Assembly: GCF_026586675.1 (NCBI RefSeq)
Contig: NZ_JAODIX010000050.1
Span: 1 to 35,917, forward strand
From: Halorubrum yunnanense
GTDB lineage: Archaea; Halobacteriota; Halobacteria; Halobacteriales; Haloferacaceae
Length of the DNA stretch: 35,917 bases
Direction: 5' to 3'
Shown here: positions 28,608 through 34,838 of the stretch, in pieces
How positions within the stretch are numbered: the first letter of the stretch is position 1
Layout: every line of letters begins with the position of its first letter
Made by a program: the position numbers and the translations under genes
The notes under the pieces: model-generated
Told to the model about the DNA's origin: nothing
What the model saw: the letters and a program-made list of their open reading frames with translations, nothing else
Database searches by the model: none

Positions 28608-29123
28608 ATGGAACCAGATGATCCACGACAACAGACCCTCCAGATGGATCGTGATACCTATGTTTGGGATACGGCTGAACACCTAGAAAAAATGTATTGG
28701 GACGACGAAATGACGCTTGAGGATATCGCGGAGAAGGCCGAGGTATCTATAACAACGGTCCATCGGCGAATGAAAAACCGCAAAGTCCCAACACGGGGAC
28801 CTGGACCATGGACCACTCACAGTACCTTCCGAACAAACACCGGTGGCAACGAGGAAGCTTCCGGATCACACGAATCAGTCGACATCCATCGGCTGGTAAT
28901 GATCGCTGAGTATGGGACAAAAGCTGTGTGTAACCGTGATGTTCATCATAGTACGAAGATCCCATTCGATAATCGCCCGAACAACCTCGAGTTGCTGTCG
29001 CATAGTGAACACACGACTCTCCATAACCGGTTGAAAAACCACCCTGAGGACCAAGCGACATTATTCAAGTTTGCATCTAATGGTGAAAATAAACCCAATT
29101 ATCTACAGCCACTAAACAAGTGA
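28608..29123 (+). CDS. HTH-HNH endonuclease-like protein
   Basis: A 171-residue protein. Residues about 35-65 form a helix-turn-helix (EMTLEDIAEKAEVSITTVHR RMKNR). The C-terminal part is HNH-like: DIHRLVMIAEYGTKAVCNRD, VHHSTKIPFDNRPNNLELLS, then HSEHTTLHNRL. The central His-His, Asn-x2 and final His match viral and homing HNH nucleases that carry a DNA-binding HTH. It is less GC-rich than the chromosomal-type genes. It sits upstream of the first copy of the repeat module, as another HNH gene sits upstream of the second copy. Confidence 0.75.
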   Translation: MEPDDPRQQTLQMDRDTYVWDTAEHLEKMYWDDEMTLEDIAEKAEVSITTVHRRMKNRKVPTRGPGPWTTHSTFRTNTGGNEEASGSHESVDIHRLVMIAEYGTKAVCNRDVHHSTKIPFDNRPNNLELLSHSEHTTLHNRLKNHPEDQATLFKFASNGENKPNYLQPLNK

Positions 29124-33258: not shown

Positions 33259-33789
33259 ATGCGACCAGAACATCTTGAACAATCAGTCTTCGACCGTTGG
33301 GGCCAGCAATGCGTGGTCTGCGGTCGAACCGTAGAAGAGTGGCTTGAAACTAACTCCGGAGCGCGCAACCAGGACAAACTCTCTTTTCACCACGTCAACG
33401 GCGACGATACGGATCAGCGTGTCGAGAACGTGATCCCGCTGTGTCAGAGCTGTCACGTCCACATCCACAAGGTGGACGAGCCACCCTACCGGATATGGCA
33501 TCGACAGCTCCCGATCGAACACCGTCATGCATGGAACGAGTACCACCACGAATACTACGAGGGGCCACGCCTGACTCGTGAAGAAGCTGTGAACCAGTTC
33601 GGCGACGATGGGGGCGTCCCAGTGAGTGTAAAGTATCTCGTTCATGAACGCGAGGGCTTCGACCCTGATGAGTTTGAAGCACCTGATATCGACTTGCTTC
33701 CCGACGATCATGCTGACGATGATTGTGACGAGTCCGACCAAGACGACGATGGCGGCGACTGTAACGACGACGGCACCGCCACGTCGTAG
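33259..33789 (+). CDS. HNH endonuclease (zinc-ribbon type)
   Basis: A 176-residue nuclease. A first knuckle is at CVVCGRTVEEW (residues 18-28), the HNH core at LSFHHVNGDDTDQRVENVIP, and a second knuckle at LCQSCHVHIHKVD. The His-His, central Asn and final His of the beta-beta-alpha-metal fold are present. The C-terminal 40 residues are extremely acidic (DDHADDDCDESDQDDDGGD). HNH proteins of this size act as free-standing homing-type or phage nucleases and can travel with RNA elements. About 110 bp after the stop begins a structured RNA candidate. Confidence 0.82.
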   Translation: MRPEHLEQSVFDRWGQQCVVCGRTVEEWLETNSGARNQDKLSFHHVNGDDTDQRVENVIPLCQSCHVHIHKVDEPPYRIWHRQLPIEHRHAWNEYHHEYYEGPRLTREEAVNQFGDDGGVPVSVKYLVHEREGFDPDEFEAPDIDLLPDDHADDDCDESDQDDDGGDCNDDGTATS

Positions 33790-33900
33790 CGGCTGATCTT
33801 AGCGGTTATTTTTCACGGTAAAGGGTCTCTGCGCCCACTAGAGTCGACTTTTAGAAAAGTGTTAAACTTCTTATACGGATAGGGATAACCTCAAACTAAG

Positions 33901-34175
33901 TATGCCCTGGTAGCGTGGAGAAACCACCTGTCGCATGCGGCAGGTAGAGGTGAGTCAAGGGTTACAACCCATGTAGGTCGCCTAACAAGCGATCAGGCCG
34001 GCGCCGTGGTTTGGGATCCCAGTTTCGGCTGGGAGTGGCGGTCCTGAGCTATGGTCGGCTGCCAAAGGAATCTGGAGTACATGGTTCACTCGGAGCCACC
34101 GACTGCGAGGCTCCGAGGCGGATATCGATGGGGAAACCCCGTTGATAGTGAGCAACACTGTAGCTACCCCCCCTC
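33901..34175 (+). ncRNA. Candidate 260-nt structured RNA downstream of the HNH gene
   Basis: A long-range helix GGTAGC (33909-33914) with GCTACC (34163-34168) encloses a chain of local hairpins: GTGG/CCAC at 33915-33927; 33927-33944; GGG/CCC at 33959-33970; GGTCGC/GCGATC at 33976-33994 with a G-U pair; CCCAG/CTGGG at 34018-34033 with a UUCG-type loop; GGCGGT/GCTGCC at 34037-34063 with two G-U pairs; a 7-bp CGGAGCC/GGCTCCG at 34091-34115; and a 10-bp stem at 34124-34146 with two G-U wobbles. Some neighbouring helices overlap by a base and may be alternatives. The G-U pairs favour a plus-strand RNA. TTATAC near 33870 can serve as TATA box. No ORF is present. I do not recognise an Rfam class. 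Confidence 0.6.
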
Positions 34176-34424
34176 CCCCAGCCGATAGGCTATCGATTGC
34201 GCTTCACTGCTCCCTCTGGCTACGGGGGCAGCCCCACCGGGATTACAGGTCCTGTGTTGAGATTTACTAGTTCGCAAGAATGGTGAGCACGCTCTCGTTC
34301 AGATCTGTTCAGTAGTCACAGTTGACGAGTGGACAACTGGTGGGCCGTAGTCGGTTGAAGAGAGAAGAAGTTGGAGACTGCTTGAGTGGGTCGCTGCGAG
34401 ACGAGTCGTTTGTAGCTCCCGAGT
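34176..34424. other. Non-coding stretch between the RNA and the G-quadruplex
   Basis: About 250 bp with short palindromes (CGATAGGCTATCG near 34182-34195; ACAGGTCCTGT near 34245-34255) and complementary C5/G5 runs that could extend the RNA structure. No gene is supported. Confidence 0.35.
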
Positions 34425-34442
34425 GGGGTGGGGTGGGGTGGG
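34425..34442 (+). other. Perfect G-quadruplex motif
   Basis: Three GGGGT units followed by GGG give four G-tracts with single-T loops, the most stable type of intramolecular quadruplex. It lies in non-coding DNA on the plus strand, between the RNA candidate and a small zinc protein gene. Potassium-rich haloarchaeal cytoplasm would favour folding. Confidence 0.7.
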
Positions 34443-34598
34443 AAGAACATGGGTGAGTTGGCCACAGCCCAGCACATGATGGTGCTGACGTGGTCGCCCA
34501 CCGTTCCCGCCTCAATCACATGAACGGACGTTACAACCTACTGTTGTCTCGTCGTTTCGACGTTCAACCACCTCGCGCTGGCTCCCAGGGAGGCAGCG

Positions 34599-34838
34599 AT
34601 GACTAGTCCTCGCCGGCGCACACGGGAACGGACAGCTCGCGAAGCACTCGAGATGCATCTCGCACAAGCGATCACGCGATGTGAGTCGACCGTTGTGCGT
34701 GCGCACCTCGAGGCAGCCCGCGAGCAGTGTCAACGCCTGCCGCTGACACCGATTGTTGAGTGTCCTGTCTGCGGAGCGGCCGGCCTGCCAGAACGGATCG
34801 CTGAACACGATTGTCCTGTGGACACCCGGGACCACTGA
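34599..34838 (+). CDS. Small zinc-finger protein
   Basis: A 79-residue protein. The N-terminal half is basic and helical (MTSPRRRTRERTAREALEMH, with LAQAITRCESTVVRAHLEAA). The C-terminal part is a CCHC-like finger, VECPVCGAAGLPERIAEHDC. Such a basic helix plus one zinc finger suggests nucleic-acid binding. Copies of this kind occur on haloarchaeal plasmids, as far as I recall without assigned function. It directly precedes copy B of the duplicated small protein family. Confidence 0.65.
   Translation: MTSPRRRTRERTAREALEMHLAQAITRCESTVVRAHLEAAREQCQRLPLTPIVECPVCGAAGLPERIAEHDCPVDTRDH

Follow-up and report, generated by a model that had tools for sequence, protein, structure and literature searches.

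The window, by which we mean the whole stretch of 35,917 nucleotides of Halorubrum yunnanense DNA analysed here, contains a small HNH endonuclease gene, a conserved structured RNA of about 275 nt, denoted RNA-1 (positions 33898-34172, plus strand), and a small zinc-finger gene, together with the flanking elements listed below.

33259..33789, plus strand: small HNH endonuclease ORF, 176 aa, with an intact HNH motif and an acidic tail (Pfam HNH, 18.9 bits, below the cut-off of 21.4; phrog_24252, E 3e-57)
33871..33875, plus strand: TTATA, TATA-like box of RNA-1, located 27 nt 5' of the conserved start
33898..34172, plus strand: RNA-1 core, nine helices (fold z-score, homologue alignment and covariation)
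34180..34226, plus strand: 3' flank of RNA-1, a small hairpin AGCC-GATA-GGCT and then a conserved box CTGGCTACGGG at 34216-34226 (homologue comparison)
34409..34414, plus strand: second TATA-like box, TTTGTA, before the zinc-finger ORF (TTTGTA or TTTTTAT conserved across loci)
34415..34511, plus strand: RNA-2, structured leader of the zinc-finger gene (compensatory changes at 6 of 14 predicted pairs)
34599..34838, plus strand: C2HC zinc-finger ORF, 79 aa, CPVCG-x2-GLPERI-x2-H-x-C (homologue alignment; 12 of 13 RNA-1 loci)

An earlier note, made from the letters of the window, had placed a candidate structured RNA at 33901-34175 and described it as a plus-strand RNA with no ORF, in which a 6-bp long-range helix encloses about eight local stems, one of them with a UUCG-type loop, and which is preceded by a TATA-like element. 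This description holds. Conservation among the homologues sets in sharply at 33897/33898 and ends near 34172, so that the conserved core differs from the proposed limits by a few bases. The long-range helix (GGTAGC at 33909-33914 with GCTACC at 34163-34168) is present and encloses about eight helices, including the UUCG-loop stem, in which the loop is closed by U-G; TTATA lies 27 nt 5' of the RNA start, and no single frame is open across all homologues. The plus strand has a predicted folding energy of -124.2 kcal/mol, compared to an average of -102.2 for shuffled sequences (z -4.24), and none of 200 dinucleotide shuffles folds as low. For the minus strand, z is 0.09, which is the background level and indicates that the plus-strand assignment is right.

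Searches of plasmids and genomes identified RNA-1 homologues at 13 haloarchaeal loci, mostly on megaplasmids. These are the window, Halorubrum sp. BOL3-1 p163, a plasmid of H. ezzemoulense Fb21, a contig of H. ezzemoulense DSM 17463, Haloarcula sinaiiensis pHsi204, H. halodurans, H. amylolyticum, Haloplanus ruber, Halobacterium salinarum R1 pHS2, Natrinema zhouii, Natrialba SSL1, and two further genomes (G346 and G241). The distribution is rare and sporadic, with the covariance model detecting RNA-1 in 7 of the 392 genomes sampled in the order. No homologue was found among phage records; one pattern match in a viral contig was rejected, given that the covariance model does not recognize it as RNA-1. 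In the literature searched, a scope that leaves out most subscription journals, we found no description of RNA-1. A search of Rfam 15, one of the checks suggested in the earlier note, yielded no match at the gathering score for the window and four homologous loci, and at E up to 10 gave only two chance-level matches, neither of them relevant.

The RNA-1 of H. amylolyticum is split over two contigs, and the broken ends share the inverted sequence GAGCCTGTCATAGA / TCTATGACAGGCTC and the repeat GTTGTAA; this pattern resembles that left by an insertion sequence that duplicated its target. When the window (33898-34010) is compared with Fb21, RNA-1 shows no difference over its first ~90 bases, and the flank upstream of it is nearly identical; the remaining RNA-1 sequence groups otherwise, the window with BOL3-1 and Fb21 with DSM 17463, an apparent recombination mosaic within RNA-1. 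The pHS2 plasmid, on which RNA-1 is located at 83.2-83.4 kb on the minus strand, carries a second, partial cassette that consists of the 3' third of RNA-1 (157467-157560) followed by an RNA-2 element (157721-157843).

The predicted structure of RNA-1 consists of the long-range helices P1, P3 and P4, the hairpins P2 and P5-P8, and a short helix inside P1.

33909..33914, plus strand: P1 5' arm GGUAGC, partner 34163-34168 (100% paired in 12 sequences; double changes at 2 pairs)
33924..33947, plus strand: P2 hairpin (double changes at 3 pairs)
33961..33968, plus strand: P3 5' arm, partner 34148-34156 (97.6% of cells paired, zero double changes; the support is pairing only)
33969..33975, plus strand: P4 5' arm, partner 34078-34084 (one pair double-changed, in 3 sequences)
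33976..33994, plus strand: P5 hairpin (double changes at 2 pairs)
33996..34060, plus strand: P6, long variable hairpin with the UUCG loop (double changes at 6 pairs)
34085..34122, plus strand: P7 hairpin (double changes at 5 pairs)
34123..34147, plus strand: P8 hairpin (double changes at 5 pairs)
34163..34168, plus strand: P1 3' arm GCUACC (covariation alignment)

In the alignment of 12 sequences, with 75 pairs, 24 pairs have changed on both sides and 95.7% of the cells are paired, the latter figure being favoured by the prediction of the structure from the same alignment. Controls gave far fewer double-changed pairs, 8.9 for shuffles and 2-8 for slid partners. We further compared these counts with a tree-aware null, in which the paired columns, each keeping its site rate, evolve unconstrained along the inferred tree under a simple substitution model of our own making. 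This null yielded 8.7 +/- 2.6 double-changed pairs, with a maximum of 16 in 300 runs, and predicted 21% broken or unpaired cells, compared to 4.3% observed. Thus, the covariation among homologues that the earlier note had named as a check is present, and compensatory changes exceed the phylogenetic null, as they do in a structured noncoding RNA. Double changes are seen in the long-range helices P1 and P4 and in the hairpins P2 and P5-P8, and none were found in this alignment in P3 or in the short helix inside P1. The P6 hairpin forms in all homologues even where its sequence diverges, weakly so in N. zhouii.

The promoter-like box is conserved in position: TTATA, TTTAT or TTACA occurs at -27 to -30 from the RNA-1 5' end at all 13 loci, several of which are close relatives. 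By this sequence evidence, RNA-1 appears to have a promoter of its own. Covariation and the position-conserved box together provide good support for a discrete plus-strand structured RNA gene, and RNA-1 is almost certainly a conserved structured RNA gene. On the 3' side, a T-rich stretch follows the small hairpin in several homologues, and a conserved CTGGCTACGG box, CTGGC(T/G)ACG, is present in most; the hairpin and the box possibly represent a terminator or the true 3' end.

The constant partner of RNA-1 is the downstream C2HC zinc-finger ORF, which does not figure in the earlier note. This ORF is located about 280-430 nt downstream of RNA-1, in the same orientation, at 12 of the 13 loci; the exception is N. 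zhouii, where transposase-like sequence follows RNA-1 in place of the zinc-finger gene. The distances among the RNA-1 sequences and among the zinc-finger sequences are correlated (Mantel r 0.80; 0 of 5000 permutations), as expected for a unit that is inherited together. As a rule, conservation is higher in RNA-1 than in the coding DNA of the zinc finger, the two being about equally conserved in the most divergent pairs, and in most pairs RNA-1 is clearly more conserved than the 130 nt upstream of it. RNA-1 is confined to the neighbourhood of close relatives of one zinc-finger clade. The predicted zinc-finger protein comprises two helices followed by the C2HC finger (mean pLDDT 79), and a fold search with this model detected no significant structural match. 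The RNA-2 leader is also found 5' of some zinc-finger genes without an RNA-1, an argument for RNA-1 being transcribed separately. Complementarity between RNA-1 and RNA-2 was considered and rejected because the pairs from the same species were no better than cross-species pairs. BOL3-1 p163 has another copy of the zinc-finger gene, at 37.6 kb of the plasmid, that is not accompanied by RNA-1.

The link to the HNH gene, which the earlier note had proposed as a possible new RNA-protein pairing, stands in part. The HNH gene is directly upstream at 6 of the 13 loci, but the pairing is not obligatory: the gene is displaced or decayed at 2 loci and was not found at 4, with 1 locus uncheckable, and the same HNH family occurs without RNA-1 in N. 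magadii pNMAG03 and BOL3-1 p117. The HNH stop codon is 109 nt from RNA-1 in the window, BOL3-1, DSM 17463, H. amylolyticum and Fb21, where the gene is split by IS701; in H. sinaiiensis, the gene ends 437 nt before RNA-1. Haloplanus ruber has an intact HNH copy 2.7 kb away and a decayed fragment near RNA-1, and in pHS2 an HNH homologue is located 8 kb from RNA-1 on the opposite strand. The search did not find the gene in the roughly 10 kb upstream of RNA-1 in G346, G241 or Natrialba SSL1 or, in N. zhouii, within 5 kb; the H. halodurans contig starts 222 nt upstream of RNA-1, so that the presence of HNH cannot be judged there. The absence of the HNH gene near RNA-1 at several loci weakens the case for involvement of the nuclease there.

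The view that the small HNH protein is not an IscB proved correct. It scores 20.4 bits against guided_IscB, compared to a cut-off of 175, and matches in the HNH part only; no RuvC-like domain was detected, with Pfam giving HNH only. The predicted model of this protein was of too poor quality for use. The window encodes a second HNH protein (HNH_3) at 28608-29123, with helix-turn-helix matches, a close homologue of which is found in G346, 4.2 kb from RNA-1. In BOL3-1 p163, another copy of the HNH gene, with 52% identity, is located some 2 kb downstream of RNA-1.

The zinc-finger family is widespread, being represented in 96 of the 392 genomes and on 36 plasmids, and many of its members lack RNA-1, which implies that the protein does not need the RNA. 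Among 44 genes located upstream of such RNA-1-less homologues, there are matches to HNH_repeat in 19 cases, to LAGLIDADG_1 in 5 and to Cas12f1-like/TnpB in 4, in a raw, uncontrolled count that includes close relatives; for scale only, the feature lists of pHS2 contain few nucleases. In Halobaculum magnesiiphilum, a protein annotated as an HNH endonuclease (WP_222609109.1) ends in the zinc finger at its C-terminus, and the reading frame also contains HNH_repeat matches. Given that the family is found next to or fused with homing-type nucleases, an indirect nuclease link of RNA-1 survives. Hypothetical proteins of about 385 aa and about 73 aa follow WP_222609109.1, at positions that match in Halorientalis litorea.

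Bacteria are the main source of the large structured RNAs known on mobile DNA. Like RNA-1, ROOL, GOLLD, OLE and the Lactobacillus salivarius lncRNA are structured RNAs of plasmids or other mobile DNA, with a sporadic distribution and mostly open function; unlike them, RNA-1 is archaeal, is about 275 nt long, has no covariance-model match and is linked to a zinc-finger gene. We rejected membership in ROOL, GOLLD or OLE, which are reported to form homo-oligomeric complexes (PMC12286853), because there is no Rfam match. The HEARO RNA, or IscB omega RNA, shares with RNA-1 the position next to an HNH gene. Here, in contrast, the HNH protein is small and has no detected RuvC-like domain, the RNA is downstream of HNH, and HNH is not obligatory; this family was rejected as well, as there is no Rfam match, no IscB partner with RuvC and HNH, and no nuclease linked throughout. 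TnpB genes, which are accompanied by an omega RNA, sometimes precede zinc-finger genes related to the neighbour of RNA-1, but no TnpB gene was seen beside RNA-1 itself, which has its own promoter-like box and overlaps no nuclease gene. Group I and group II introns were rejected in the absence of their conserved catalytic core in the Rfam search. By these tests, RNA-1 falls outside HEARO/IscB, the ornate bacterial families and the known introns. Small zinc-finger proteins of haloarchaea carry a CPXCG motif (PMC11241148); the neighbour of RNA-1 differs in having one CPxCG combined with H-x-C (C2HC), a two-helix N-terminus and a structured RNA upstream.

The explanation that we favour, with a probability of about 0.5, is that RNA-1 is an ornate noncoding RNA of haloarchaeal plasmids, discrete and transcribed independently, and that it would act in trans, folded and bound by the zinc-finger protein. 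Together with this protein and, at many loci, the HNH homing-type nuclease, RNA-1 would form a small selfish or plasmid-borne module, in which its role could be control, recruitment or target-site handling, as opposed to that of a base-pairing guide. Judging from the sequence, independent transcription and action in trans are probable. Binding of RNA-1 by the zinc-finger protein is a tentative proposal that falls a little short of even odds, and we are less sure still that RNA-1 serves the nuclease module.

Alternatively, RNA-1 might be involved in plasmid maintenance or copying and be unrelated to the nuclease, with the zinc-finger and HNH genes as mere neighbours on a shared backbone. Most copies are indeed carried by plasmids, and for one of them there is an orc1/cdc6 gene at a distance of 4.5 kb; deletion of the abundant lncRNA of the L. 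salivarius megaplasmid lowers the plasmid/chromosome ratio (PMC5643018), an analogy that could extend to RNA-1. However, an RNA found in 7 of 392 genomes, on otherwise dissimilar plasmids, does not belong to a general replication system, and the gene to which it is linked encodes a zinc finger, not a replication protein, so we consider this alternative unlikely. Somewhat more doubtful is a cis-acting role, whereby RNA-1 would be the 5' untranslated region of the zinc-finger mRNA and would control it, for example, by binding the protein itself. The position of RNA-1 5' of the gene, in the same orientation, and the correlated distances would fit, whereas the gap between the two holds another conserved TATA-like box and RNA-2, a structured leader in its own right that some zinc-finger genes keep without RNA-1, and N. 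zhouii has RNA-1 without the gene.

A guide or scaffold RNA of the small HNH nuclease, similar to HEARO/IscB, would account for the HNH genes directly upstream and is brought to mind by the TnpB genes that precede some distant zinc-finger homologues. We nevertheless regard it as highly improbable: the nuclease and the RNA each occur without the other, the protein has neither a detected RuvC-like domain nor an appreciable IscB score, Rfam shows no HEARO match, and a transcript that starts from the conserved 5' end would leave no room for a 5' guide. The ornate fold, the long-range helices and the adjacent homing-type nuclease could also suggest an undescribed or degenerate self-splicing or self-cleaving RNA. 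To this we assign the smallest chance of all, because Rfam gives no group I, group II or known ribozyme match, and RNA-1 interrupts no recognizable gene and has its own promoter-like box.

RNA-1 is a compact RNA, well supported by covariation, that occurs in a laboratory species, Halobacterium salinarum R1, and has a concrete candidate protein partner, which makes its function directly testable; no comparable haloarchaeal RNA family is described in the sources searched. If true, a link between a structured RNA and zinc fingers of a family found in the company of HNH, LAGLIDADG and TnpB nucleases would add a new theme to the biology of homing. A bolder version of the favoured explanation, which we consider improbable, is an archaeal mobile ribonucleoprotein of a new kind, in which a structured RNA and a zinc-finger adaptor would work with homing nucleases that can be exchanged for one another, here HNH, and the RNA would recognize or position the target.

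Upstream of distant zinc-finger homologues, peaks of the fold score were seen, but the covariance model finds no diverged RNA-1 there. At five of the distant zinc-finger loci, a different hairpin-rich stretch, with z down to -4, is located ~300-420 nt upstream of the ORF, before another small ORF, and is possibly a separate structured leader.
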